A stretch of DNA of 35,259 nucleotides from Alphaproteobacteria bacterium (GCA_022827685.1 JAJEIH010000118.1:1-35259), one strand, 5' to 3'; counted from the first letter of the stretch, positions 8,278 to 26,018 are shown. A program made the numbers and translations. Notes: generated by a model not told the origin, from the sequence alone.

Positions 8278-8613
8278 ATGGCCGTGCGACTCGACAGGCC
8301 CTGGCGGCGGCTCGACGCGGAGGCCGTGGCCGGGCTTAGCGGCCAGCTCGGCGTCTATCAGCTCTCCGACGACGGGGCGACCGTGCGGGCGATCCACCGG
8401 GTCGATGCGCGCTCGCTGTTCGGCCTGCGCGGGGAGCTCGGGCGCGAACTGGAAGAGCGCGGCGAGGGGCTGTTCTTCCGTCTGGAGGTCAACCACCAGC
8501 CGCGCACCCGCTGGCTGGAGCTGATGATGGTCCACAAGGCCGATCACGGCAGCCTGCCGGCGTGGAACCCGCCGGAGGACGGCGAGGGTCTCGGGCGCCT
8601 CAGCCCGGCCTGA
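8278..8613 (+). CDS. small DUF7508-like protein
   Basis: This 111-residue soluble protein begins at the base after the preceding stop codon, and the GGGGGAG before that stop serves as its ribosome-binding site, so the two are translationally coupled. Features include LDRPWRRLD at the N-terminus, GQLGVYQL near residues 22-29, SLFGLRGELGREL, a basic RTRWLELMMVHKADHG segment and a GLGRLSPA tail. I associate this pattern with DUF7508, an uncharacterised family also found in haloarchaea; the match is from memory. The GVYQL and FGLRGELGR segments faintly recall a degenerate GIY-YIG-like core, which is speculative. Its place between crotonase and acyl-CoA dehydrogenase genes suggests an accessory role in CoA-ester metabolism. 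Confidence 0.75.
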   Translation: MAVRLDRPWRRLDAEAVAGLSGQLGVYQLSDDGATVRAIHRVDARSLFGLRGELGRELEERGEGLFFRLEVNHQPRTRWLELMMVHKADHGSLPAWNPPEDGEGLGRLSPA

Positions 8614-8656
8614 CCGGCCTCGACAGAATTTTCGGAATCAGGAAAGCGCAAGACTT

Positions 8657-9823
8657 ATGGACCTGTCCCTTACCGACGAGCAGAAACTGATCGTGGACCA
8701 GGTGCGCCGCTTCGTCCGCGAGGAGATCGTGCCGCTGGAGGACGGTCTCGACCCCGACGCCGACAGCCTGCCGCCGGAGGACCATGAACGGCTCGCCAGA
8801 AGGGTGGCGGAGATGGGCCTTTACGGCCTCGACATTCCGCCGGAATTCGGCGGGCCGGACGTGGATATCGTGACCCGCACCCTGCTCGCCATCGAGATGT
8901 CGCAGCACCGCGCCGGCCTCTATGCGCCCTGCTACAACGTCTTCGGCGGCGCGGGCCTGGCCCAGATGTTCGAGGCCAATGACGACCAGAAGCAGCGCTT
9001 CCTCTTTCCGATGCTGAGAGGCGAGAAGAAGACCTTCTTCGGCCTGACGGAGCCCTCGGGCGGCTCGGACCCGGCCCGCGCCATCCAGACCCGCGCGGTC
9101 CGCGACGGCGACGACTGGGTCATCAACGGCGCCAAGATGTTCATCTCCGGCGCCGACCGGGCGGATTTCGGCCTCGTCTTCGCCCGCACCGACCCGGGCA
9201 AGGGGCGGGCCGGCGTCACCTGCTTCATCGTCGAGACGGACACGCCGGGCTTCCATGTGCGGCGCATCGTCCACACGCTGCGCGCGGCGCGCTATGCGAC
9301 AGAGCTGCAATTCGAGGACATGCGCGTGCCGCACGCCAATGTGCTGGGCGAGGTCAATGGCGGCTTCGCCATCGCCAATGACCGCGTGTCGCGCCAGCGC
9401 ATCCCCTATGCGGCCACCTGCATCGGCGTCGCCGTCAAGGCGCAGGAGCTGGCGGTCGAATATGCCGGGATAAGGGAGACCTTCGGCGACAAGCTGGCGC
9501 ATCGCCAGGGCATCCAGTGGATGGTGGTCGAGAACGAGATCGACATCCGCCAGTCGCTCTGGATCACCCTTGCGGCCGCCGACAAGGCGCGGCGTGGCGA
9601 GGCCTTCCGCACCGACTCCGCGCTCGCCAAGATCGTGGCGACGGAGGCCTCGGGCCGGGTGGTGGACCGCGCCATGCAGATCCACGGCGGCTACGGCGTC
9701 ACCAAGGACCTGCCGTTCGAGCGCTGGTACCGCGAAATGCGCATCCGCCGCATCGGCGAGGGCCCGAACGAGGTCCAGCGCCACATCGTCGCCCGCGACC
9801 TGTTCGGCAGCTCGCTGCGCTAG
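8657..9823 (+). CDS. acyl-CoA dehydrogenase
   Basis: This 388-residue flavoprotein is full length for the acyl-CoA dehydrogenase family, which introduces the alpha-beta double bond in acyl-CoA and passes electrons to ETF. The N-terminal helical domain (residues 1-110), the FAD-binding beta domain with FGLTEPSGGSDP near 127-138, and the C-terminal helical domain with the MQIHGGYGV segment are all present. The catalytic base is Glu368 in IGEGPNEVQR, in the position of Glu376 of medium-chain enzymes. The gene follows the DUF7508-like gene by 43 bp. With the crotonase-fold gene and the SDR it could make up successive beta-oxidation-like steps. Chain length or branched substrates cannot be told from sequence. 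Confidence 0.95.
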   Translation: MDLSLTDEQKLIVDQVRRFVREEIVPLEDGLDPDADSLPPEDHERLARRVAEMGLYGLDIPPEFGGPDVDIVTRTLLAIEMSQHRAGLYAPCYNVFGGAGLAQMFEANDDQKQRFLFPMLRGEKKTFFGLTEPSGGSDPARAIQTRAVRDGDDWVINGAKMFISGADRADFGLVFARTDPGKGRAGVTCFIVETDTPGFHVRRIVHTLRAARYATELQFEDMRVPHANVLGEVNGGFAIANDRVSRQRIPYAATCIGVAVKAQELAVEYAGIRETFGDKLAHRQGIQWMVVENEIDIRQSLWITLAAADKARRGEAFRTDSALAKIVATEASGRVVDRAMQIHGGYGVTKDLPFERWYREMRIRRIGEGPNEVQRHIVARDLFGSSLR

Positions 9824-9911
9824 GGAGCAGCGGTTTTGACAGGCGGCGCAATAGCCCGCACATTCGCGGCGGGGTATTGAGTTGCCGGAAATATGGAGGG
9901 GAGACGGGTCG

Positions 9912-10832
9912 ATGGGAATGCTGGAAGGGCGGGTTGCGATCTGCACCGGTTCCGGGCGCGGCGTCGGCGCCGAAGTGGCGAAGATGATGGCCGCGAACGG
10001 CGCGAGCGTCATTGTCAACGACCCCGGCGTCGGCGGCGGCGGCGAGGGCGGCGACCAGACGCCGGCCCAGGCGATTGCGGACGAGATCAGGGCGGCGGGC
10101 GGCCAGGCGGCCGCCAATTTCGGCTCGGTGGCCAAATTCGAGGACTGCCTCGACATGGTGCAGCAGGCGCGCGACGAGTTCGGCGGGCTGCATGTCGTCT
10201 TCAACCCCGCCGGCATCCTGCGCGACCGCATGTTCCACAAGATGTCGCCGGAAGACTGGCAGGCGGTCATCGACGTCCACTTGACCGGCCACTTCAATGT
10301 CAACCGGGCGGCGATCAACCTGTTCCGCGAGCAGGAATACGGGCGCATCATCATGGTCTCCTCGACCTCCGGCCTGCTCGGCAATATCGGCCAGGCGAAT
10401 TACGGTGCGGCGAAGCTCGGCATCGTGGCGCTCGCGCGTATCGTGGCGATGGAGAACGCATCGAAGAACGTGACCGCCAATGTCATCGCGCCCTCGGCCG
10501 ACACCCGCATGACCCGCAGCGTGCCAACGCCGAAGGACCCCGCGGCGGCGGCGATCCGCGACGAGCGCCTGAGGCTCAGCCGGGCGGACGCCATCGCCCC
10601 GCTCTGCACCTTCCTCGCCTCGGAGGAGGCGGGCTATGTCAACGGCCAGGTGTTCCACCAGCGCGCGGGCGAACTCACGCTTTACGGCCATTCCCGGCCC
10701 GTGCGCACGGTCCACCGCAACGGCAACTGGACGCCGGAAAGCATTGCCGAGGTGGCCATGCCGTCGCTTTCGGGCCAATTCTACGAAATCGCGAACTCCC
10801 GCAGCGTCCATGCGGGAATGCCGATGGCTTGA
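9912..10832 (+). CDS. SDR-family dehydrogenase, MFE-2/hydroxyacyl-CoA type
   Basis: This 306-residue short-chain dehydrogenase has the nucleotide motif TGSGRGVG at residues 12-19, NPAG at 98-101 (in place of the usual NNAG), the catalytic serines 150/151 and Tyr164-x3-Lys168 in NYGAAKLG. The glycine-rich insertion after VNDPGV near residue 40 is typical of the hydroxyacyl-CoA dehydrogenase part of peroxisomal-type multifunctional enzyme 2. The start at 9912 is set by GGAGGGGAG nine bases upstream; an upstream in-frame ATG at 9882 lacks this. The C-terminal 60 residues beyond the core are longer than in minimal SDRs. It lies 88 bp after the acyl-CoA dehydrogenase and would fit the 3-hydroxyacyl step. 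Confidence 0.92.
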   Translation: MGMLEGRVAICTGSGRGVGAEVAKMMAANGASVIVNDPGVGGGGEGGDQTPAQAIADEIRAAGGQAAANFGSVAKFEDCLDMVQQARDEFGGLHVVFNPAGILRDRMFHKMSPEDWQAVIDVHLTGHFNVNRAAINLFREQEYGRIIMVSSTSGLLGNIGQANYGAAKLGIVALARIVAMENASKNVTANVIAPSADTRMTRSVPTPKDPAAAAIRDERLRLSRADAIAPLCTFLASEEAGYVNGQVFHQRAGELTLYGHSRPVRTVHRNGNWTPESIAEVAMPSLSGQFYEIANSRSVHAGMPMA

Positions 10833-14734: not shown

Positions 14735-16318
14735 TTAAATGTCGGTCTCGACGAAGCGCATTGCCTGGCGGGCCGTGCGGCGCACCATCTTGCGGCGCAC
14801 CGGCGAATGCAGCAGGCGGTTGAGCGCCGCAAGCGCCAGCTCACCGGACCGTCCCGCCTCGCCCGAAGCCAGCAGGCTGCGCACCGATGACGCCGTCTTC
14901 ACCAGATGGACGGAGACGATGTAGCGGTCCTGGCCGTGGTCGAGGAGCGTGTGCTTTACCCCGGCGAAAAAGGCGTCCGGGTCCGCAACCGTCCAGTCCT
15001 CCGGGTCCACCCTGTCGTCCTGATGCCCGATATTGCGACCGGAGAAACAGGCCATCTGCAGCAGACCCGACGGCCACAGTTCCGGAAACTTCGAACAGAG
15101 GCCGAGCACTGCGTCCGCAAAGGTGAGGCCGTGGGTCAGGTCGAGCCAGCCGAAATCGCTTCCATAGGGCTGGTCGAGGTCCTCCAGGTGCCTGAGGTTG
15201 AAGCGCACCATGTTGAGCGCATTGGCCCCCAGCAGGCTGCGGAAAAGGTCGAGCGCCGGCGCGGCGCCGCGCCCGGCGGTGAACGCCATCGCCCTGTTGG
15301 CGTTCAGGCCGTCATAGTCCGCCGCGGCGGGCGCCGCTCCGTTCGGTTCCGATCCGAAACTCTCCAGGGCTGCGCCGTAGCCGCGGAACTCGGGGATCAG
15401 GTCCTCGCGAAACGCCGCCGCCAGACCCCTCACCAGCGAAAGCAGGACCGGTTCCGCGATGTCCTCGCCCAGCCGGCGGACCAGTGCCCCGGCCTTGGTC
15501 ACATAGATGGCGGAGTGGCCGAAACCGGCATAGTGGGCGAGCGCGGACCGGGCCAGCCCGCGCTCCATGGCGCCCCAGGCGTCGCCGGTGGCGACCGCGC
15601 CGCGGGTCAGGCGGATGGCGCAAGCTTCGTCTTCCTCCTCGACCGCCCGGCAGAAAGCCTCCTCGTCCCATGCCTCGACGCCTTCGGCATAGGGGTAGCG
15701 CCGCTCGCGCAGGGTGTCTTCGGCCATGTGGCCGACGGCCTCCAGAAGGCAGATGAGCCGGTCCTCGGACCCGTCCTCATGCTCGTCGTAAAGCGCGAGC
15801 CAGTCCGCCGCGCCGGCATAGGCATGCGTCCATCCGAACTCCAGCCTGTCATGCGACCAGCGGATCGCTTCCTTTATGGCGCGCACGGGGTCGACGCCGA
15901 TCCGCGCAATCCGGGCGATCTCGCGCGCCAGCCGCTCATAGTCATGGTCGCGGAAGCCCTGCTTCAGGTCGTCAAGCGATTTCGACAGGCGCTTCCCGAC
16001 GGGCGGATCGACGATCTCGATCCACACATCGCCGCTGCGGACCTCGACCGGATAGACGCGCAGCCTGTCGCCGTCGCGCTGGTTCTCGCCCGTCTCCAGG
16101 TCGAACTTCCAGTTGTGCCAATTGCAGGTGAGCAGGCAGTCGCCGTCGAGCGTCCCTTCGCGCAGCGGATAGCCCTCATGCGGGCAGCGGTTGTTGCAGG
16201 CGCGGATGCCTTTCACGGTGTCGAAGAGAGCGATCTGGCGGCCATCCAGCCGGAAGACCGTCCGGCCCTTGCGGCGAAGCTCCTCGACGCTGACGGCCCT
16301 GATCCAGCCTTGGTGCAT
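14735..16318 (-). CDS. Rieske [2Fe-2S] protein fused to a large unrecognised helical domain
   Basis: Residues 1-105 form a Rieske domain with CPH at 45-47 and CNWH at 65-68, the C-x-H...C-x2-H spacing that ligates a [2Fe-2S] cluster. The remaining 420 residues are not the catalytic domain of a ring-hydroxylating oxygenase as far as I can tell. They look mostly alpha-helical and carry scattered histidine motifs (WTHAYAGAADW, AHYAGFGHSA, LTHGLTFADA, HTLLDHGQDRY, VSVHLVKTAS). A distant relation to questin-oxidase-like or other helical oxidases is possible but unproven. The start at 16318 has a GGGAGG site; an earlier in-frame start at 16432 is rejected. It follows the amidohydrolase by 58 bp. 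An electron-accepting oxygenase or oxidase acting on the compound taken up by the neighbouring binding protein is an inference. Confidence 0.85.
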   Translation of the reverse strand: MHQGWIRAVSVEELRRKGRTVFRLDGRQIALFDTVKGIRACNNRCPHEGYPLREGTLDGDCLLTCNWHNWKFDLETGENQRDGDRLRVYPVEVRSGDVWIEIVDPPVGKRLSKSLDDLKQGFRDHDYERLAREIARIARIGVDPVRAIKEAIRWSHDRLEFGWTHAYAGAADWLALYDEHEDGSEDRLICLLEAVGHMAEDTLRERRYPYAEGVEAWDEEAFCRAVEEEDEACAIRLTRGAVATGDAWGAMERGLARSALAHYAGFGHSAIYVTKAGALVRRLGEDIAEPVLLSLVRGLAAAFREDLIPEFRGYGAALESFGSEPNGAAPAAADYDGLNANRAMAFTAGRGAAPALDLFRSLLGANALNMVRFNLRHLEDLDQPYGSDFGWLDLTHGLTFADAVLGLCSKFPELWPSGLLQMACFSGRNIGHQDDRVDPEDWTVADPDAFFAGVKHTLLDHGQDRYIVSVHLVKTASSVRSLLASGEAGRSGELALAALNRLLHSPVRRKMVRRTARQAMRFVETDI

Positions 16319-16376: not shown

Positions 16377-17357
16377 TCACAACCCGAGCAAACGCGCCGT
16401 CGAACAGGACAGGATTTCGGCCCGCTGGGCATCCGTGAGGGGAGTGTCGTCCACGACCTTGCGGGGCGCGGGGTCGCCGATGGGGAAGGGGTAGTCGGAG
16501 CCGAGCATCACGCGCTCCGCCCCCATCAGGTCCACCAGGAAACGGAGCGCATCCGGCCGGAACACGCAGCTGTCCACATAGAGCCGCGAGAGGCCTTCCG
16601 CCGGGTCGGCATACTGGCCCGGATGGGCATCGACGTTCCTCACCAGACGGCCGAGCGCGAAGGGCAGCGCCGCCCCGCCATGGCTCAGGATCAGCCTGGC
16701 GCCGGCGTATTTCAGCACGTGGCCCGAAAACAGGATCCGCGCCACGGCCACGGTCGTGTCCGCCAGCCTGCCGACCGCATTGACCATGTCGTAATCCACG
16801 ACGCGCGGGTCGCTTGTCACATACATCGGATGGACATAGAGCACGGCCCCGCGCTCATGCGCCGCCGCCCAGAAGGGCTCCAGGGACGGGTGGTCGAGCA
16901 CGCCGGAATCGCCATGCGGCTGCGTGCCGATCATGAAGCCGCGGAAGCCGTGGTCGAGCGCCTCGCAAAGCACCTCGGCGGCACGCTCGCCGTCCTGCAG
17001 CGGCACGCCGGCCAGCGGGATCAGGCGTTCCTCGCCCTCGCAGGCCCGCCAGAGCGCCTCGTTGCAGAAGCGGTTCCAGTCCGCCCCGGTCCCGCCGTCC
17101 AGCTCGTAGCCGAAGCTGTCGGTCCAGGGCGCGACCACCTGCCGGTCGAGGCCCTGCTCGTCCATCCAGGCCAAGCGTTGATCGGCTTCGCGCAGCTTCG
17201 GGTTGACCGGGCGCGTCGGGTCCCTTCCCCCGAAGGCGAGCCGGAAGCGCCCGTCCTCATGCAGGCATTCGACCCCGTCGAAGCGGGCCGCTCCCCGGGC
17301 CAGCGTGTCGAACACCGTCTGGGGAACGTAATGGGCATGCGAGTCGATGACCTTCAC
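16377..17357 (-). CDS. ACMSD-like amidohydrolase (metal-dependent decarboxylase/hydrolase)
   Basis: The protein of 326 residues is an amidohydrolase-2 family TIM barrel. Counting from the GTG start, His7, His9, His176, His226 and Asp288 closely match the zinc ligands and catalytic histidine of Pseudomonas ACMSD (His9, His11, His177, His228, Asp294). This supports a metal-dependent nonhydrolytic decarboxylase or a lactone/amide hydrolase. The start is a GTG at 17357, preceded by GGAG at a normal distance and followed at once by KVIDSHAH, as in relatives. Upstream ATGs would extend into the promoter region of the divergent molybdenum hydroxylase gene. It probably leads the operon amidohydrolase, Rieske fusion, binding protein, amidase. 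Confidence 0.9.
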   Translation of the reverse strand: MKVIDSHAHYVPQTVFDTLARGAARFDGVECLHEDGRFRLAFGGRDPTRPVNPKLREADQRLAWMDEQGLDRQVVAPWTDSFGYELDGGTGADWNRFCNEALWRACEGEERLIPLAGVPLQDGERAAEVLCEALDHGFRGFMIGTQPHGDSGVLDHPSLEPFWAAAHERGAVLYVHPMYVTSDPRVVDYDMVNAVGRLADTTVAVARILFSGHVLKYAGARLILSHGGAALPFALGRLVRNVDAHPGQYADPAEGLSRLYVDSCVFRPDALRFLVDLMGAERVMLGSDYPFPIGDPAPRKVVDDTPLTDAQRAEILSCSTARLLGL

Positions 17358-17451
17358 CGGAGCACTCCGTTCGTGAATCGGGACGAAGCGCATCATTGCC
17401 GGAGCGTCCGGCAATGCCAAGAATGACCCGATGCGCGGGGGAGGCGGGGCG

Positions 17452-19764
17452 TTGAGCGAAATCGGCAAGCCGAGAAGACGGGTGGAGGACGGCCGGCTGG
17501 TGACGGGCCGGGGCCGCTATGCCGACGACTTCACGCCCGAAGCGGCGGCCTATGCCTTCGTCCTGCGCAGCCCCCATGCCCATGCCCGCATATGCGGGAT
17601 CGAAACGTCGCGCGCCGCGGCCCTGCCCGGCGTGCTCGCCGTGCTGACGGGCGCCGACGCGGCCGCCGACGGGATGGGGCCGATCCCGCACAATCCGGAC
17701 TGGCAGGGCGGGCCCGATGTCGAACTGCGCCTGCCGGACGGCTTCGAGGTTGCGCTTGTGCCGAACCTGCCCCTGCCGGTCGATACCGTGCGCTATTGCG
17801 GCGAGGCGGTGGCTCTGGTCGTGGCCGAAACCGCGGCCCTGGCGGCCGACGCGGCGGAGCTGGTTGCGGTGGACTACGAGCCCCTGCCGGCCGTGACGGA
17901 TGCGCGGGCGGCCATGGGCGGCGCCGCGCCGCAGCTCTGGCCCGACTGTGCGAACAATCTGGCGCTCACCTGCGAGGTCGGCGACCGCGAGGCGGTGGAG
18001 GCGGCCTTCGCGGACGCGGCCCATGTCGTGACGCTCGAAAGCCATATCCACCGCGTCAACGGCGTGCCCATGGAGCCGCGCAGCGTCGTCGGCGAATACG
18101 ACGCCCGCACGGAGTTCTACACCCTGCGCGCCGCCTCCGGGCGCGGCGCCGTGCAGACGCGCGAGCGGCTGGCGGCGGTGCTCGGCGTGCCGCTGGAGAA
18201 GTGCCGGGCCGTATTCGGCGACATGGGCGGCAATTTCGGCACGAGAAACGCCTTCTCGCCCGAATTCGCGCTGATTCCCTGGGCGGCGAGGCGCACCGGG
18301 CGGCCGGTAAAGTGGACGGCGGACCGCCGCGAATGCTTCCTGAGCGACTATCAGGCCCGCGACCTCCGTTCCGAGGCGGCGCTGGCGCTCGACGAGGACG
18401 GCAATTTCCTGGCGCTCCGGGGCGTGAACACGCTCAATCTCGGCGCCTACACGGTCTATTTCTGGCCACTGCGCAAGGGCCTCTCGATGATGCAGGGGAC
18501 CTACCGGATACCCGCCGTCCATTTCCGGGGCCATGCGGTGCTTACCAACACGGCGCCGACCGCCGTCTATCGCAGCGCCGGCCGGCCCGAGGCCATCTAC
18601 ATGATCGAGCGGCTGATCGACCTCGCGGCCGGAGAGCACGGCTTCGACCGGGTCGAACTGCGCCGGCGGAACCTGATTGCGCCGGAGGCCATGCCGTTCA
18701 CCAACGCGGTCGGCGTCACCTATGACAGCGGCGACTACGCCGCCGGCATGGACAAGGCGCTCGAGGCGGCCGACTGGGCGGGCTTCGAGACGCGGCGCGC
18801 CGCATCCCGCCGGCGGGGGCGCCTCCGGGGCATTGCGGTCGCCAACTATATCGAGGTGACGAGCGGCATTCCCCGCGAGCGGGTGGAGGTCCGGGCGCTG
18901 GCGGACGGCACGATAGAACTGGTCGTCGGCACGATGAGCAGCGGACAGGGCCACGAGACCAGCTTCCCGCAGCTTGCCGCCGACTGGCTGGGCGTGCCGT
19001 TCGAGCGCATCCGCTATGTCGCCAACGACACGGAGCGCGTGTCGGTCGGCGGCGGTTCGCATTCCGGCCGCTCCATGCGGCTCGCCAGCATCGCCATCGA
19101 CAAGGCGGTGGCGGCATTGGTGGAGCGGGGCAAGGCCATTGCCGCCCGCGCGCTGCAGGCTGCACCCGAGGACATCGCCTGGCGCGGAGGCGCGTTCCAC
19201 GCTGCGGGCGGCGCCAGCCTCGGCCTCGCCGAAGCCGCGGCCCTTGCCGACGGGCCGCTGGAAGGCATCGGCGACATCACCGACCGATCCGGCGGCTATC
19301 CCTACGGCGCGCATGTCTGCGAGGTCGAAGTCGATCCCGAGACGGGCCATGTCTGTGTCGCGGCGTGGACGGCGCTCGACGATGTCGGCCTCGCGGTCAA
19401 TCCGCTGATCCTGCACGGGCAGGCGCAGGGCGCGGTGGCGCAGGGCCTCGGCCAGGCGCTGATGGAGGCGGTCTGCTACACGCCGGAGGACGGCCAGCTG
19501 GTCACCGGCTCGTTCATGGATTACGCCATGCCGCGGGCCGACACGGTGCCGCCGATCCACACGCTGATAACGGAGGTGCCGGCGAGTTCGCACCCCTTCG
19601 GCATCCGCCCTGGCGGCGAGGGCGGCACCACGCCCGCGCTCGGCCTCCTTGCCAACGCCGTCTGCCACGCGCTCGGCGATCTCGGCGTCCGGCATATCGA
19701 AATGCCGCTGACGCCCGAGCGCGTGTGGCGGGCGATCCGGGACGCGCAGCGGAACCGCCGGTAG
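17452..19764 (+). CDS. CoxL/XdhB-type molybdenum hydroxylase large subunit
   Basis: This is the molybdopterin-binding large subunit of the xanthine dehydrogenase / CO dehydrogenase family (about 770 residues, normal length). The N-terminal a/b hammerhead begins RRVEDGRLVTGRGRYADD, and molybdenum-cofactor loops such as GDMGGNFGTRN follow. The active-site loop reads VYRSAGR at 372-378, like the AYRGAGR of form-II enzymes rather than the AYxCSFR of true CO dehydrogenase. The catalytic glutamate is Glu723 in GEGGTTP. A TTG start at 17452 is preferred because GGGGGAGG lies just upstream and relatives start with SEIGKP; ATG at 17431 is the alternative. No genes for the FAD or [2Fe-2S] subunits are nearby, which is unusual. 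CO oxidation is unlikely; hydroxylation of an aldehyde or N-heterocycle is plausible. Confidence 0.93.
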   Translation: MSEIGKPRRRVEDGRLVTGRGRYADDFTPEAAAYAFVLRSPHAHARICGIETSRAAALPGVLAVLTGADAAADGMGPIPHNPDWQGGPDVELRLPDGFEVALVPNLPLPVDTVRYCGEAVALVVAETAALAADAAELVAVDYEPLPAVTDARAAMGGAAPQLWPDCANNLALTCEVGDREAVEAAFADAAHVVTLESHIHRVNGVPMEPRSVVGEYDARTEFYTLRAASGRGAVQTRERLAAVLGVPLEKCRAVFGDMGGNFGTRNAFSPEFALIPWAARRTGRPVKWTADRRECFLSDYQARDLRSEAALALDEDGNFLALRGVNTLNLGAYTVYFWPLRKGLSMMQGTYRIPAVHFRGHAVLTNTAPTAVYRSAGRPEAIYMIERLIDLAAGEHGFDRVELRRRNLIAPEAMPFTNAVGVTYDSGDYAAGMDKALEAADWAGFETRRAASRRRGRLRGIAVANYIEVTSGIPRERVEVRALADGTIELVVGTMSSGQGHETSFPQLAADWLGVPFERIRYVANDTERVSVGGGSHSGRSMRLASIAIDKAVAALVERGKAIAARALQAAPEDIAWRGGAFHAAGGASLGLAEAAALADGPLEGIGDITDRSGGYPYGAHVCEVEVDPETGHVCVAAWTALDDVGLAVNPLILHGQAQGAVAQGLGQALMEAVCYTPEDGQLVTGSFMDYAMPRADTVPPIHTLITEVPASSHPFGIRPGGEGGTTPALGLLANAVCHALGDLGVRHIEMPLTPERVWRAIRDAQRNRR

Positions 19765-19770
19765 CCCCCC

Positions 19771-20493
19771 TTACCCGATGGCGCAGCCGAAGCCTCCGTC
19801 CACGGAGATCGTCTGGCCGGTGACGAAGCCGGCGAGGTCGGAGGCGAGGAAGAGCGCCACCTTCGCCATGTCGTCTGGCAGGCCCCAGCGGCCGAGCGGC
19901 GTGCGCGCGACGATCCCGCGGTCCGCCTCTTCGTTCTGCTTGAAGCGGTCGGTCATCTGCGTGTGGACATAGCCCGGCGCGACGGCGTTGACGCGGATGC
20001 CGTCGCCGCCCCAGGCCACGGCCAGCGTCTTTGTCATCTGCACGATGCCGGCCTTGCTCGCCCCGTAGCCCGGATTGCCCTGGCTGCCGAAGAAGGCCGT
20101 CATCGAGGAGAGGTTGATGACCGAGCCCGGGCGCGCGGCGAGCCGGTCATGCAGCAGGGTCGCGAGATGCAGGCCGGCGCCGAGGTTGACCTCCAGCACC
20201 CGGCGGAAGGTCTCGGGCTCGTATTCCGCCCGCCGGTAGGCGACCATGCCGGCATTGTTGACCAGCACGTCCAGCCGGTCGAACCGTGCCGCCAGCGCGC
20301 GCCGCTGTTCCTCGTCGCCGACATCGACGGTGTGGAACTCGATCCCGTCAAGGTCGCTCTCATAGGTATCGCGCGGCCTCGTGCCCGTCGCCGCCACTTC
20401 CGCGCCGGCGTCGCGGAAGGCCGTCGCCATGGCGTTGCCGATGCCGCTCGACCCGCCGGTCACCAATATCCTGTAGCCGTCGAATCGCAGCAT
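19771..20493 (-). CDS. SDR-family oxidoreductase (FabG-like)
   Basis: A classical 240-residue short-chain dehydrogenase with TGGSSGIG at 12-19, NNAG at 79-82, Ser129/Ser130 and the YGASK motif (Tyr143, Lys147), ending in the usual TGQTISVDGGFG. It would oxidise or reduce a hydroxyl/keto group with NAD(P). It is the last gene of the five-gene minus-strand operon, starting only 3 bp after the stop of the PaiB-like gene, so translation is probably coupled. Its end lies 6 bp from the end of the convergent molybdenum hydroxylase gene. Fatty-acid FabG is unlikely in this context; a catabolic dehydrogenase is more probable. Confidence 0.93.
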   Translation of the reverse strand: MLRFDGYRILVTGGSSGIGNAMATAFRDAGAEVAATGTRPRDTYESDLDGIEFHTVDVGDEEQRRALAARFDRLDVLVNNAGMVAYRRAEYEPETFRRVLEVNLGAGLHLATLLHDRLAARPGSVINLSSMTAFFGSQGNPGYGASKAGIVQMTKTLAVAWGGDGIRVNAVAPGYVHTQMTDRFKQNEEADRGIVARTPLGRWGLPDDMAKVALFLASDLAGFVTGQTISVDGGFGCAIG

Positions 20494-20496
20494 GGG

Positions 20497-21135
20497 TCAG
20501 TCCGCCTCCGGCAGGTTCCGCATCAGGCCCGCAAGCAGCGCCGTCTCCATCCCGAAGCCCGCTGCCTCGACATGGCCGGCGGCGGTCAGCCGTGCCGTAT
20601 CAGGCCTGTTCTGGTTCAGCTTCCAGGTGCCGTCCACCGCCTCCACCTCAAGCTCGACCGGCAGGATCGCCCGCATCAGCCCTTCCAATTGGCGCTCGGG
20701 GACCTTGGTTGTCCGCCAGGGCCGCTTGGGCCGCAGCCGTTCCTCGAATTGCGCCGCCAGTTCATCCAGATGGCCCCGGATCGTCTCTTCCGGACGAAGC
20801 CGCAGCACACCGCGCAGATGCACCGCCACATAGTTCCATGTCGGCACCAGCCCGGGGTCGGCCTCGTACCAGTCCGGCGAGATGTAGCCGTCCGGGCCGC
20901 CGACCGCCAGCACGGCCGGCCGCTCTCCATCCTCCAGGCACCGCAGGATCGGGTTGGGCCGGGCGAGATGGGCGTGGACCGCACTGCCGTCCTCCGCCAG
21001 CAGGAACGGGATGTGACTGAGCAAGGGCCCGCCGGCGTCGCCCGCGCTGACAGCGAGGACGCCGAAGCCGCGCTCTCTCGCAAAGGCCAGGTTGGCCGCC
21101 CGCGAAGCCCGCCGGAACAGCGGGGACGGGTGCAT
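20497..21135 (-). CDS. PaiB-type FMN-binding split-barrel protein
   Basis: The 212-residue protein belongs to the PaiB family, named FMN-binding negative transcriptional regulators after Bacillus PaiB. Diagnostic segments are LLSHIPFLL near residues 36-44, VHAHLARPNP, GGPDGYISPDWY near 80-91, VPTWNYVAVHLRG, and WKLNQNRP near the C-terminus. The true biochemical role of the family is uncertain and may be flavin- or heme-linked rather than regulatory. The ATG at 21135 has GGGAGG upstream; a longer frame reaching 21540 overlaps the previous gene and is rejected. It sits 16 bp after the tandem CMD gene and 3 bp before the SDR. Confidence 0.9.
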   Translation of the reverse strand: MHPSPLFRRASRAANLAFARERGFGVLAVSAGDAGGPLLSHIPFLLAEDGSAVHAHLARPNPILRCLEDGERPAVLAVGGPDGYISPDWYEADPGLVPTWNYVAVHLRGVLRLRPEETIRGHLDELAAQFEERLRPKRPWRTTKVPERQLEGLMRAILPVELEVEAVDGTWKLNQNRPDTARLTAAGHVEAAGFGMETALLAGLMRNLPEAD

Positions 21136-21151
21136 GCGCCTGCCTCCCGCC

Positions 21152-22330
21152 TCAGCCTGCCGGGAACCGGCCGTCGGGTGCCCAGACCGTGTCGCCTTCC
21201 TCATGCGGCGCGCCGCTGCTGCGCAGGACTTGCGAATACATGCGCCAGTGGGAAATCGCCGCCACGAGTTCAAGGAGTTCGGGCAGGGTTCCGAACGCCG
21301 CCTCGCAGGCCGCCCAGGCCTCGTCGCCGACCGCGCCTGTTTCCAGCGTGTCGTCGGTCGCCATGAGCGCCGCGCGCTCGGCTGCGGTGAAATCCGTGTC
21401 CTCCAGGGGCCTTCGGACCGCGAGCAGGTCCGTGTCGCTGACGCCGATCCGCCGGCAGAACGGCACATGGCGCGCCCATTCCACCGCCGAGCCGGTCCGC
21501 CAGGCGGTCCGCATGATGACCAGTTCGCGTACGCGGGCATCCAGCACGCCGTTATAGAGAAGGCGCGAGAGCAGGCCGTTCAACGCCCTCGCAAGCGGTG
21601 GATGCTGCAGCAGCAGCCGGTAGGGCGCGCGCCGCGCCTGTCCGTCATCGAGGCCGAGTTCTGTCCCTCGGGCCGCGGATTCGTCGGGCTGGAGCAGCGG
21701 CAGAACGGGGTCGTCGTCCACGCCTTCCCGTCCCGCTAGGCCGCCTGAAACGCCGATCTCGGGCTCCGGCGGCGTCTCGCCGTCGGGTGGCCAGGGCGCC
21801 ACGCCTTCCTCAAGCGGGACGCGCAGGGTGCGCAGCAATTGCGAGAACATGCGCCAATTGCCGATTGCCGCCAGAAGCTCGATTCCCTGCGCGGGGCCGC
21901 CGAGGGTTTCGAGACATTCCGCCATCGTTGCGGGCGATACGGCGCCGGTGTCGAGCGTCTCGTCCACGGCGGCGAGCACGGCGCGCTCCGGCTGGCCGTA
22001 GCCGGTGAAACCGCGCCAGTCGCGCACGCCCAGAATGTCGGTTTCTTCCATGCCGAGGTCGCGGGCGACACGCCAGTGCTGCGTCCATTCATAGAGAGAC
22101 GCCGTCCGCCATGCGATGCGCATGATGAGGAGTTCGCGCAGCCGCTCGTCCAGGATCCGGCCCTTGTAAAGCAGCATGATGAGCAGCGTCTGGATCGCCT
22201 TGGCGAGCGGCGGGTGGTGCAGCAGGGCCCGCATCACCTCGAGACGCGCAAGGTCGGGATGGATGCGCACCTCGCCGCCGCGCGCGACGGCCTCCTCGAC
22301 GGAAAGCGGCGCTATGCGGTGCCCGGTCAT
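21152..22330 (-). CDS. tandem carboxymuconolactone-decarboxylase-like protein (two fused domains)
   Basis: This 392-residue protein is an internal duplication of a CMD/AhpD-fold domain. ELLIMRIAWRT at 66-76 is repeated as ELVIMRTAWRT at 269-279, and Glu81/His85 recur as Glu284/His288, a shift of 203 residues. The segments around AIGNWRMFSQLLR (155-167) and AISHWRMYSQVLR (358-370) also repeat. There is no CxxC pair, so alkylhydroperoxide-reductase activity of the AhpD type is unlikely. The domain linker (about 185-232) is acidic and probably disordered. The start codon overlaps the TauD-like stop as ATGA (22327-22330), showing coupling. A decarboxylase or lactone-processing function in a ring or dicarboxylate pathway is only inferred. 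Confidence 0.88.
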   Translation of the reverse strand: MTGHRIAPLSVEEAVARGGEVRIHPDLARLEVMRALLHHPPLAKAIQTLLIMLLYKGRILDERLRELLIMRIAWRTASLYEWTQHWRVARDLGMEETDILGVRDWRGFTGYGQPERAVLAAVDETLDTGAVSPATMAECLETLGGPAQGIELLAAIGNWRMFSQLLRTLRVPLEEGVAPWPPDGETPPEPEIGVSGGLAGREGVDDDPVLPLLQPDESAARGTELGLDDGQARRAPYRLLLQHPPLARALNGLLSRLLYNGVLDARVRELVIMRTAWRTGSAVEWARHVPFCRRIGVSDTDLLAVRRPLEDTDFTAAERAALMATDDTLETGAVGDEAWAACEAAFGTLPELLELVAAISHWRMYSQVLRSSGAPHEEGDTVWAPDGRFPAG

Positions 22331-23277
22331 GGACGGTCTCCGGTGGCAACGGATGGCTTCGGCGCGATGCCGCCTCCGGCGCGGTCGTGCCGGGCGTGCA
22401 TGGTCATGGTCTCCGGGCGCGGCGGCCAGTCCGGCATCATCAGCCAGAGGCGCAGCATGTGCCGCTTGCGCTCCGGGTCAGGTGAATCCCGGTAGTCGGC
22501 CCGGCCGTGAAGAATGAGCCGGTTATTGAGGAACTGCATATCGCCCGGTTCGAGGTCCATCTCATAGGCGAGGTCGGACCGCGCGGCTGTTCGACTTACC
22601 GCCTCCAGCGCCTCGCGCTCCAGTGGCGAGAGCGGCACTCCCGCCTTCTCGGCATTGCGGATGGCGATCGGCAGCAGGAAGGCGGCGAACCGGCCGTCGA
22701 TTTCGCCGAACACCGGCACCCGGTGCGGGGTGGTCGGGGGCGCGCCGGCGGCTTTGTCCTCCTGCCGGCTGGTGTAGTGGAAGCCTCTCCGCAGCACCGG
22801 AACGAGGTCGGGCCGTTCCGCCAGCACGGCGTTATGCACCGCGGCCGAACTCGCGATGCGGCTTTCCCCGCCGCGGGCGGCTTTCTTCAGGCAAAGCAGC
22901 CCCACGACATCGACCGGGTCCATGTGCATTTCGAGCGCGCCGCCCACCGTGTAGTAGCGCCCGGCTTCCCCGATGTCGCGGACATGGCCGATCCGGTCGC
23001 CCTTGTAGCTCTGCGAGACGGCGATGCCGAGCGCCTCGCCGAGCCCGCTGAAGATCGCCGTTGCCGTTTCTTCGCCATAGCGCGCGACCGGCAGGCCCCG
23101 GACCAGTGCGAGGCCGTGCCCGCTCTCCAGCCCGGCCCGTATCTCGGACAGGCGCGGCAGATCGAAGCGGCCCGCTTCCAGCGATGCGATCTCCGCCGGG
23201 GCAAGGTCGATACACCAGGACCGGTCGGCGGCGAGGTCCGCGGCCCGCCAGACATGCGGGCCCTCGGCCGGCTTCAT
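22327..23277 (-). CDS. TauD/TfdA-family Fe(II)/2-oxoglutarate dioxygenase
   Basis: This 316-residue protein carries the facial triad of iron/2-oxoglutarate dioxygenases: His118 and Asp120 in EMHMDP and distal His257 in LILHGRADY. Arg276 in HMLRLW probably binds the 2-oxoglutarate carboxylate. The family hydroxylates taurine, phenoxyacetates, gamma-butyrobetaine and many other substrates, so the reaction class is clear and the substrate unknown. The start at 23277 is an ATGA overlap with the CMD stop, and its own stop is an ATGA overlap with the tandem CMD start. A long frame continuing upstream to 24921 is a shadow across the divergent hydrolase and is rejected. Confidence 0.94.
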   Translation of the reverse strand: MKPAEGPHVWRAADLAADRSWCIDLAPAEIASLEAGRFDLPRLSEIRAGLESGHGLALVRGLPVARYGEETATAIFSGLGEALGIAVSQSYKGDRIGHVRDIGEAGRYYTVGGALEMHMDPVDVVGLLCLKKAARGGESRIASSAAVHNAVLAERPDLVPVLRRGFHYTSRQEDKAAGAPPTTPHRVPVFGEIDGRFAAFLLPIAIRNAEKAGVPLSPLEREALEAVSRTAARSDLAYEMDLEPGDMQFLNNRLILHGRADYRDSPDPERKRHMLRLWLMMPDWPPRPETMTMHARHDRAGGGIAPKPSVATGDRP

Positions 23278-23603
23278 TCGGACCCGCGCTCGGCGACCAC
23301 GTCCTTGGCAACCAGCGCCGCCGTCATCGCCGCCGGCCATCCTGCATAAAGCGCGAGGTGGGTGATGAGCTCGGAGAGCTCCTCCGGCGTCACGCCGTTG
23401 TCGAGCGCGCGCCCGACATGGCCCTTCAACTGCCGCTCGCGGCCCAGCGCCACCAGGGTCGCGACGGTAATCAGGCTGCGGTCGCGCTTGGACAGCGCCT
23501 CGCGTTCCCAGACATCGCCGTAAACGACCTTCTCGGTCATCTCGATCATCTTGGGCACGAAATTGCGCACCGCGTCCCTGTCGGGCGGTATCTGCGTGGC
23601 CAT
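23274..23603 (-). CDS. single-domain carboxymuconolactone decarboxylase family protein
   Basis: At 109 residues this is a one-domain CMD-family protein resembling the C-terminal part of PcaC. Family-like segments are RSLITVATLVALGR near 42-55, LKGHVGRALDNGVTPEEL and ITHLALYAGWP near 79-89. There is no CxxC motif. PcaC decarboxylates 4-carboxymuconolactone in the protocatechuate branch, but many family members have other, unknown roles. An AGAGGGGGA ribosome-binding site precedes the ATG. It is the first gene of the coupled five-gene operon CMD, TauD, CMD-CMD, PaiB-like, SDR, and its promoter should lie in the 76-bp gap shared with the divergent metallo-hydrolase. Confidence 0.92.
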   Translation of the reverse strand: MATQIPPDRDAVRNFVPKMIEMTEKVVYGDVWEREALSKRDRSLITVATLVALGRERQLKGHVGRALDNGVTPEELSELITHLALYAGWPAAMTAALVAKDVVAERGSE

Positions 23604-23679
23604 CGGGCATCCCCCTCTTCATGTTCGCATCCGGTATGATTGTATCCGACCGCCCGCAGCGAGAAAGGGCCCGAGCCCC
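23604..23679 (-). promoter_or_regulatory. divergent promoter region (candidate -10 TACAAT)
   Basis: This 76-bp gap separates the CMD operon from the divergent metallo-hydrolase and must serve both. On the minus strand TACAAT at 23639-23644 is close to a -10 element and would give a leader of about 30 nt; the -35 position is poor. On the plus strand TATGAT at 23635-23640 overlaps it, also without a good -35. The overlap would make transcription of the two sides mutually exclusive, if real. No operator was identified. Confidence 0.3.
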
Positions 23680-24558
23680 ATGTCCGCACCGACCGCCCAG
23701 ATTCCCGGCGTCTATCACCGCCGCATCGGCGACATCGCCGTCACCGCCCTCAGCGACGGCTATCTCGACGGCGACCTCACTGTCCTGCAGGGGATCGATC
23801 CCGCAGTCGGCGAGGCCGAGATGGCCGCCGTGTTCCAGCCGGCGCGACGCACCTCGGTGAATACCTTCGTCGTTCATTCGGGCGGGCGCACGGCGCTGAT
23901 AGACACCGGCTCCGGCACCTATCTCGGCCCCACCGCCGGATGGCTCGGCCGCAATCTCAAGGCGGCGGGGGTCGAGCCGTCCGAAATCGATACCATCCTC
24001 TTGACCCACATGCACCCGGACCATTCCGCCGGTCTCTCGGACCGGGAGACGGGCGAGCGCCTCTTCCCCAATGCCGAACTCGTCATGCATGAGAACGAGC
24101 CCGGCCACTGGGCGGACGACGCCGCGATGAGCCGCGCGACCGAGCGAGAGAAGTTGCTCTATTTCCAGGCCGGCCGGGAGCAGATCGCGCCCTACAAGAG
24201 CGCCATGCGGCTCTTCGGGTCCGGCGAGGTGTTCCCGGGTGTGACTGCCTTGCCCGCCCATGGGCACACGCCCGGCCACACGGCCTATCTGGTCGCGTCG
24301 GGAGACCGCAGCCTGCTGATCTGGGGCGACACGGTGCATGTGCCCGATATCCAGGTGGCGCATCCGGAGGTCACCATCGCCTTCGACACCGACCCGGAGC
24401 GGGCGGCGGCGTCCCGCATACGGCTTTTCGACATGGCCGCCAGCGACCGGCTGCTGATCGCCGGGATGCACCTGCACTTCCCCGGCTTCTCGCACCTGGT
24501 CCGCGACGATGGCGGCTACCGGCTGCTCCCGGAGAGCTGGGACCAGGCTTTCGAATGA
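23680..24558 (+). CDS. metallo-beta-lactamase-fold hydrolase
   Basis: The 292-residue protein has the MBL-fold zinc signature HMHPDH (His110, His112, Asp114, His115), preceded by ALIDTGSG near 72-79 and followed by GHTPGHTAYLV and WGDTVH, which supply further ligands. Such stand-alone enzymes include lactonases, esterases and arylsulfatase-like hydrolases. A lactonase acting near the CMD-family proteins is attractive but unproven. The ATG at 23680 is supported by a modest GAGAAAGGG site and by the family-like start; a longer frame from 23551 overlaps the CMD gene. It is transcribed alone, divergent from the CMD operon, and ends 20 bp before the convergent VOC gene. Confidence 0.93.
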   Translation: MSAPTAQIPGVYHRRIGDIAVTALSDGYLDGDLTVLQGIDPAVGEAEMAAVFQPARRTSVNTFVVHSGGRTALIDTGSGTYLGPTAGWLGRNLKAAGVEPSEIDTILLTHMHPDHSAGLSDRETGERLFPNAELVMHENEPGHWADDAAMSRATEREKLLYFQAGREQIAPYKSAMRLFGSGEVFPGVTALPAHGHTPGHTAYLVASGDRSLLIWGDTVHVPDIQVAHPEVTIAFDTDPERAAASRIRLFDMAASDRLLIAGMHLHFPGFSHLVRDDGGYRLLPESWDQAFE

Positions 24559-25016: not shown

Positions 25017-25432
25017 GCCGGCTCCGGGGCGCTGACGAGTTCCACCGTGTTGCCGTCGGGGTCCTTCACATAGATGGAATGCCAGCCGACCCATTCGTGA
25101 AAGGCGGTCCGGGGTTCGAGGCCCCGGGCGGCGAGCGCGGCCAGCGCGGCGGGGCGTTCGGCATGGGGGATGCTGAGCGCGAAATGGTGGAGCGTGGAGC
25201 ACGGCTGGTCGTGCCCCTGCCAGCCTTCGCCCCGGTCGAGAGGGAAGAGGGCAAGCACGGCCGTGTGGCCCTCGAAGCCGGGCGCCAGGCGGAAGAAGGT
25301 CATGCCGTCGTCGAAAACCCGCATGACCTCCAAGCCGATCACGTCCCGGTAGAAGGCCCGCATCTCGTCGAGCCGGGCCGTCCGCAGCACAACCTCGCCG
25401 AGCGCGCGGACCGGGATGCCCGCGTTACCCAT
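25013..25432 (-). CDS. VOC (glyoxalase-like) superfamily protein, first copy
   Basis: This 139-residue VOC-fold protein shows RTARLDEMRAFYRDVIGLEV in module 1, TLHHFALSIP in module 2 and YVKDPDGNTVELV at the end, with the usual histidine and glutamate metal ligands (LHHFAL, VELV). An AAGGAG site lies just upstream of the ATG. The gene begins inside the last 8 bp of the MT-A70 gene and ends in an ATGA overlap with the next VOC gene, so it is part of a coupled array. Possible activities are a glyoxalase, an epimerase or a dioxygenase; none can be chosen. Confidence 0.9.
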   Translation of the reverse strand: MGNAGIPVRALGEVVLRTARLDEMRAFYRDVIGLEVMRVFDDGMTFFRLAPGFEGHTAVLALFPLDRGEGWQGHDQPCSTLHHFALSIPHAERPAALAALAARGLEPRTAFHEWVGWHSIYVKDPDGNTVELVSAPEPA

Positions 25433-26018
25433 CGCCTGCTCCTTCGCTTCCCGGGTGGTCCGGCCCGGAGCCCCGGGCCTCCAGTCCCCAGGTCGTCCAG
25501 CCCGGAGCCCGGTCGCGGGAGAACAGCTCGATTTTCGACTGGCCGGGGAACATCGCCTCGATGCGCCGCCGGACTTCCGTCGGCTTCTCGGAGTGCGGAC
25601 CGCGCTCGGCGCTCACAAGCTGGCGGATGTTCCTCGCACCCCTGGGCTGCGGAATCTTGCCCCGCTTGAAGACGAGGCAGAGTTCGCACTGGCTGAGTGT
25701 GTAGAAGCCGGGATTGGTCTTTCGCTTGTCCCACACGAATGCGACCGTCGCCCAGCTGAAGCCCCACGCCTTCCCGAGTTCGATGGCCTGGTCCAGATGC
25801 GGATTGGTGGCCCAGAGGAACAGCAGCGAATCCTGCGCTGCAATGCGCGCGACCGGCAAGGTCTTCAGGTCCTCCAGCGTGACGGTCGGATAGTGCCGGA
25901 CCGCGCCGCCGGAGTCGCCGGACCCGGGCCCGGCATGCTGCAACTGGCCCTTGTAGTCCCAGGGCGGGTCGGCATAGACGATCTCGAAGACCCGCTTCGG
26001 GAGTTCGGGGAAGACCAA
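25425..26018 (-). CDS. MT-A70 family adenine methyltransferase
   Basis: The 197-residue protein carries the catalytic DPPW motif at residues 17-20 (IVYADPPWDYKG) and other MT-A70 features: LLFLWATNPHL, FSWATVAFVWDK, NPGFYTLSQCELCLVFKRG and the late SRDRAPGWTTWG segment. MT-A70 enzymes transfer a methyl group from S-adenosylmethionine to N6 of adenine in DNA or RNA. No ATG fits; a TTG at 26018 with AGGGAGG upstream is the probable start. It lies 33 bp after the alpha/beta-hydrolase stop and overlaps the next VOC gene by 8 bp. No restriction endonuclease or specificity gene is nearby, so it appears to be an orphan inside a metabolic operon. Its last 15 residues look unconserved. Confidence 0.9.
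   Translation of the reverse strand: MVFPELPKRVFEIVYADPPWDYKGQLQHAGPGSGDSGGAVRHYPTVTLEDLKTLPVARIAAQDSLLFLWATNPHLDQAIELGKAWGFSWATVAFVWDKRKTNPGFYTLSQCELCLVFKRGKIPQPRGARNIRQLVSAERGPHSEKPTEVRRRIEAMFPGQSKIELFSRDRAPGWTTWGLEARGSGPDHPGSEGAGDG

Follow-up and report, generated by a model that had tools for sequence, protein, structure and literature searches.

A lineage-specific operon in one alphaproteobacterial genus that brings known enzyme families together in an undescribed way

The operon and its neighbouring genes

The window analysed in this study is a whole contig of 35,259 nucleotides (C80) from an alphaproteobacterial genome of 4.3 Mb that is 99% complete (G000). Five genes on its minus strand form one tight run. 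The first encodes CMD1 (23274..23603, 109 aa), a single-domain PcaC-like protein of the gamma-CMD type (Pfam CMD, 1.4e-23). It is followed by a TauD/TfdA-family Fe(II)/2-oxoglutarate dioxygenase (22327..23277, 316 aa; Pfam TauD, 4e-34), by CMD2 (21152..22330, 392 aa), in which two AhpD-like domains stand in tandem (Pfam CMD, 1.5e-25, in two stretches), by a PaiB-like protein that is a probable heme binder (20497..21135, 212 aa; Pfam FMN_bind_2, 2.7e-39), and by a classical SDR as the last gene (19771..20493, 240 aa; Pfam adh_short_C2, 2.9e-57). ATGA overlaps of 4 bp join CMD1 to TauD at 23274 and TauD to CMD2 at 22327, with the junction sequences AATGAAG and CCATGACC; the gaps are 16 bp between CMD2 and the PaiB-like gene and 3 bp between the PaiB-like gene and the SDR gene. 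An MBL-fold hydrolase gene (23680..24558, plus strand, 292 aa; Pfam Lactamase_B, 2.1e-23) is divergent from the operon, and the 76 bp between them (23604..23679, not assigned to a strand) were taken from a seven-species alignment as a putative promoter region. The initial annotation had described five coupled genes and a divergent MBL hydrolase, and all of them were recovered with the same positions, overlaps and gaps and with strong Pfam assignments. Neither a transporter nor an obvious regulator was found inside the operon. The literature searched held no description of this gene combination, in agreement with the earlier statement that it matches no known pathway.

Downstream, the 3' end of the operon is faced by the 3' end of a gene for the molybdopterin-binding large subunit of a xanthine-dehydrogenase-family enzyme (17431..19764, plus strand; Pfam MoCoBD_2, 3.3e-68). 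No small or medium subunit for it was identified in the window. The synteny was kept where contigs reach (L030 and L029), and the gene is also kept in a species of the genus that has no operon (G007), where it adjoins an amidohydrolase, again with no partner subunit identified. The next gene in the window encodes an Amidohydro_2 protein (16377..17396, minus strand; Pfam 4.1e-29) and is syntenic in L030 and in G007. Beyond it lies a gene for a protein of 527 aa (14735..16318, minus strand) composed of an N-terminal Rieske ferredoxin domain (Pfam Rieske, 4.3e-15) and a helical stretch of about 420 aa, which matched no Pfam family; the PDB fold matches listed for this protein cover the Rieske part only. 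Within the order, the Rieske protein was present in all seven genomes with the operon and in none of the seven without it. As an exclusive partner of the operon it was rejected, because two distant families (f35 and f66) carry copies of 82–85% identity without the operon. Such high identity suggests either horizontal transfer or extreme conservation of the sequence. Elsewhere in the window, genes for a TRAP transporter, an LLM monooxygenase, VOC proteins, an amidase and an ABC binding protein were found. An MT-A70-family methyltransferase gene (25425–26018, minus strand) overlaps a VOC/glyoxalase-family gene by 8 bp and is an odd neighbour for a catabolic region.

Residues and folds of the encoded proteins

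The iron triad of the TauD-family protein (His118-x-Asp120 and His257) and its 2-oxoglutarate arginine (Arg276) were invariant in 13 sequences, so that the HxD...H triad and C-terminal arginine typical of TauD/TfdA enzymes are both present. Its nearest solved structures were FrbJ (5eqn, E 4.8e-34) and 7n7v. The SDR carries TGGSSGIG, NNAG and YGASK, which include the TGxxxGxG and YxxxK motifs of classical SDRs. The MBL enzyme has the zinc motif THMHPDH, and its nearest structures were 4le6 (1.1e-68), 5hif and 1p9e. With the profile for AidB quorum-quenching lactonases (NF047979), the MBL enzyme scored 210.6 bits, below the cut-off of 360.

The nearest solved structures of CMD1 were 4g9q and 2af7. 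It fell short of the curated cut-off for PcaC (4-carboxymuconolactone decarboxylase), with 81.1 bits for TIGR02425 against an equivalog cut-off of 155.7. The AlphaFold model of CMD2 had a pLDDT of 87 and a pTM of 0.89. In Foldseek it matched Atu0492, PA0269 and Sestrin2 with a probability of 1.00 and with all E-values above 0.001, and the target-normalised TM score to 2gmy was 0.79–0.81. Together with a Pfam CMD score over the cut-off, this gives CMD2 the AhpD-like helical fold of the CMD superfamily. A tree bearing on the origin of its two domains had weak support.

The proton relay of PA0269 consists of Glu36, Cys48, Tyr50, Cys51 and His55 (PMC3141380). Aligned to these residues, domain 1 of CMD2 has Glu66, Ser78, Tyr80, Glu81 and His85, and domain 2 has Glu269, Ser281, Val283, Glu284 and His288. 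Glu66/Glu81/His85 and Glu269/Glu284/His288 were invariant across 20 domains, and Cys-x-x-Cys was absent. The role of AhpD peroxidase was therefore rejected for CMD2, since both catalytic cysteines are replaced while the glutamate and histidine are kept; the protein is very unlikely to be a thiol peroxidase and more likely to use acid/base chemistry. The decarboxylation suggested by the initial annotation came from the CMD name only. Because CMD2 has an AhpD-like fold without cysteines and CMD1 lies far below the PcaC cut-off, decarboxylation is not indicated.

The PaiB family (PF04299) binds heme through a histidine together with asparagine, threonine and lysine (PMC13274692). When these ligand residues were mapped from that report, His56, Asn61, Thr99 and Lys172 of the PaiB-like protein made up the same set, and all were kept in the genus and in a relative of 35% identity. 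The structure matches were PaiB, NohD (7.6e-16) and piperazate synthase (2e-10). Judged from its residues, the protein is probably a heme binder. The earlier label of flavoprotein is therefore doubtful. The role of piperazate synthase was also rejected, as Asp177, Lys178 and Tyr150 of that enzyme are missing from the PaiB-like protein.

Conservation within and beyond the genus

Eight species of the genus were sampled, seven with the operon (G000–G006) and one without it (G007). The gene order was kept in seven of the eight, with some copies split over contig ends. The identity of the operon proteins to those of the window was 86–98%. Against G000, pairwise dN/dS was 0.04–0.23 across the five genes (0.04–0.08 for CMD1), which indicates that all five are under purifying selection, and dS across the seven operon-bearing species was 0.17–0.59. 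In the 76-bp divergent region, a block of 33 columns was nearly invariant in the alignment of the seven species and reads TTTCTCG.TGCGGGCG.TCGGATACAATCATA on the operon strand. This block is consistent with a shared regulatory region. A strict-rule sigma-70 scan of the divergent region gave no match, and its promoter role is therefore only putative. The 16-bp gap is not shared by all species, as two carry an insertion of 393 nt between CMD2 and PaiB (L026 7334–7726 and L027 6532–6924). The insertion holds a putative membrane ORF of 60-odd residues and was not found in the other loci compared alongside these two. The order kept in seven species, the low dN/dS and the near-invariant intergenic block indicate that the operon is more than a chance arrangement. 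The genes had been proposed to form one unit, and their packing and purifying selection bear this out, as they are co-transcribable and functional. The operon is a real, functional unit of known enzyme families whose combination is undescribed.

The genome of G007 is 100% complete. CMD2, the TauD ortholog and PaiB were absent from it, and the operon was missing in contiguous sequence; at the expected site, the xanthine-dehydrogenase-family gene and the amidohydrolase stand together with other genes, presumably dnaN-, recF- and gyrB-like. The SDR was represented only by a 49% paralog and CMD1 only by a 37% relative, and the MBL gene survives without the operon on another contig.

The initial annotation had named conserved order in distant genera as a sign of a functional system. 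This expectation failed, as orthologs were scattered and no conserved linkage was seen outside the genus. In the sister genera (g2 and g3), genes of ortholog-like identity lay apart from one another; the SDR ortholog was present in all six genomes (56–60%), CMD1 had 55–62% identity, and PaiB had 33–37% only. One of these genomes (G008) was the only one with a TauD ortholog (59%), and its MBL protein had 61% identity. In the same genome (L174, about 8500–10254), the SDR ortholog is divergent from another small PcaC-like CMD gene, 39% identical to CMD1, and a MarR-like gene follows. We regard this arrangement as a partial echo of the CMD–SDR linkage.

Across the class, 60 neighbourhoods of TauD relatives of 8.5–16 kb were surveyed. 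CMD1 was found within about 7 kb of the TauD relative in none of the 60; the survey did show a single distant CMD2-like gene, about 6 kb away, and a single PaiB. TauD was adjacent to an SDR gene in four of the 60 relatives (1.6 expected) and to a substrate-binding-protein gene in five (1.4 expected), both weak enrichments. Relatives of the tandem CMD protein were examined at 36 loci of named genomes, of which 13 were annotated, while L032 and L034 had no gene calls. The loci with gene calls were mostly in beta-oxidation contexts, and single-domain CMD2 relatives in Parvibaculum, Actinomycetota and Nevskia adjoin genes for acyl-CoA dehydrogenase, enoyl-CoA hydratase, CoA ligase and Zn-alcohol dehydrogenase. 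No TauD match was found at the CMD2-relative loci outside the genus. At several loci, statements of absence refer to tblastn or phmmer only. Other tandem CMD proteins, 28–31% identical to CMD2, occur at L011 (G012) and L012 (G011), and the G012 locus also holds LLM and polysaccharide-deacetylase-like genes. The tandem CMD protein was not found in the plasmids or phages searched, nor any TauD relative in the viral contigs searched. A plasmid of Variovorax SRS16, whose source was linuron-contaminated soil, encodes a TauD relative (39.5% identity) with an SDR directly after it, in a cluster that looks degradative and includes an amidohydrolase, an aldolase-family gene, a CoA-transferase and a tripartite transporter.

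A multi-genus functional system was rejected, because the gene set was linked in no distant genus examined. The operon is therefore a lineage-specific assembly, limited to one genus among the genomes examined and built from genes scattered in sister genera. As linkage is not conserved outside the genus, it does not follow that the enzymes act in the same pathway.

Proposed function and comparison with known systems

The genus is probably sponge-associated. A named member, bin95 (MPNF), lives in symbiosis with the sponge Aplysina aerophoba and belongs to guild I, where carnitine-metabolism COGs showed the strongest enrichment (PMC5649159). The genome of the window has 37 TauD-family genes, and the numbers across the order were 16 to 48, a large expansion; among 14 control genomes, a single one gave a TauD-family match. 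The 37 genes and the guild membership of bin95 fit an oxidative specialist.

In this study, we believe, with confidence divided about evenly, that the five genes make up an oxidative catabolic operon that is co-transcribed and specific to the lineage of this one genus. The operon probably helps to break down a small molecule. This catabolic reading is supported by the tight unit, its order in seven species, purifying selection, the conserved divergent block, and the intact iron triad and 2-oxoglutarate arginine of TauD; the SDR and MBL enzymes keep their catalytic motifs as well. It is also supported by the acyl-CoA clusters around CMD2 relatives, by the TauD–SDR cluster of Variovorax SRS16, by the transporter, monooxygenase, VOC, amidase and binding-protein genes of the window and, weakly, by the adjacency of TauD to SDR and binding-protein genes. 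Against it stand the missing conserved linkage outside the genus, the MBL gene that occurs alone in G007, the lack of a transporter or regulator inside the operon, and the PaiB fold, which is also found in proteins annotated as regulators. The specific chemistry is tentative and unlikely to hold in full. The TauD-family enzyme would hydroxylate a small carboxylate or similar metabolite, and the SDR would oxidise the resulting alcohol. One or both CMD-fold proteins may then carry out non-redox acid/base chemistry on the product, such as isomerisation, C–C cleavage or decarboxylation. For the PaiB-like protein, a heme-based role in sensing or modifying an intermediate is possible, and the MBL hydrolase may open or trim an ester or lactone, whether within the route or independently of it. 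The initial annotation had proposed hydroxylation, oxidation, ring-opening and decarboxylation of an acid; hydroxylation and oxidation are also part of the reading given here, ring-opening is an unsupported guess, and decarboxylation takes its basis from the CMD name. The MBL enzyme resembles hydrolases and lactonases and is present in G007, which has no operon. A wider proposal, which we consider doubtful, is a full undescribed route for degrading a sponge metabolite, in which CMD2, as a tandem AhpD-fold enzyme without cysteines, and a heme enzyme of the PaiB type would perform new catalytic steps after 2-oxoglutarate-dependent hydroxylation.

The operon might instead remove a secondary metabolite of the sponge or a co-symbiont, for example a haloaromatic or an isonitrile, rather than feed carbon. 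The life of bin95 in A. aerophoba (PMC5649159) would suit such detoxification, and there is a weak match between the CMD profile and the debrominase Bmp8 (E 0.018). The complex structure of Bmp8, however, is that of the C82A mutant, which points to a catalytic cysteine, whereas CMD2 has serine and glutamate at the cysteine positions; the operon also contains no recognised gene for a dehalogenase or for efflux. We consider detoxification unlikely, and to a similar degree so is the explanation that metabolic genes of separate roles drifted under one promoter in the genus. The scattered orthologs in sister genera and the absence of the small CMD gene from all 60 class neighbourhoods are what such drift would leave, but order, overlaps and the divergent block were kept over seven species at dS of 0.17–0.59, and G007 lacks the whole operon and not part of one. 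Least probable of all is a tailoring cassette for a natural product, in which the PaiB-like protein would be a heme enzyme acting on N–O bonds like piperazate synthase or NohD. The structure matches to both enzymes and the closeness of TauD to FrbJ, a natural-product hydroxylase, speak for it; the replaced piperazate-synthase residues, and an annotated window that yielded no NRPS, PKS or N-hydroxylase, speak against it.

At present, the operon is limited to one lineage and is built from ordinary families. If the catabolic reading is true, it is a compact, testable case of oxidative specialisation in sponge symbionts, and it places two enzymes with unexplained chemistry, the tandem CMD2 without cysteines and the PaiB-like heme protein, in a setting from which a substrate might be identified.

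Compared with known systems, the operon TauD shares the facial triad and 2-oxoglutarate arginine with FrbJ and other TauD/TfdA dioxygenases, but no phosphonate biosynthetic genes were identified near it. In the beta-ketoadipate module, PcaC is the gamma-carboxymuconolactone decarboxylase and PcaD the enol-lactonase. CMD1 is also of the gamma-CMD family and has a hydrolase nearby, whereas neither a ring-cleaving protocatechuate dioxygenase nor an enol-lactonase could be recognised here, and TauD, PaiB and SDR are foreign to that pathway. In fold and zinc motif, the MBL enzyme is similar to methyl parathion hydrolase, dihydrocoumarin hydrolase and AidB lactonase, but its gene is transcribed apart from the operon. 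The PaiB-like protein has the fold and the His/Asn/Thr/Lys set common to PaiB, piperazate synthase and NohD, while Asp177, Lys178 and Tyr150 of piperazate synthase (SbPZS numbering) correspond to Asn176, Arg177 and Gln149, the Tyr150 equivalent being placed by offset only. CMD2 shares the fold and the Glu36 and His55 positions with the AhpD-like proteins PA0269 and Atu0492 and differs from them in the replacement of Cys48 and Cys51 by Ser78 and Glu81 (Ser281 and Glu284 in domain 2). Similarly, Sestrin2 has two AhpD-like domains, as CMD2 does.
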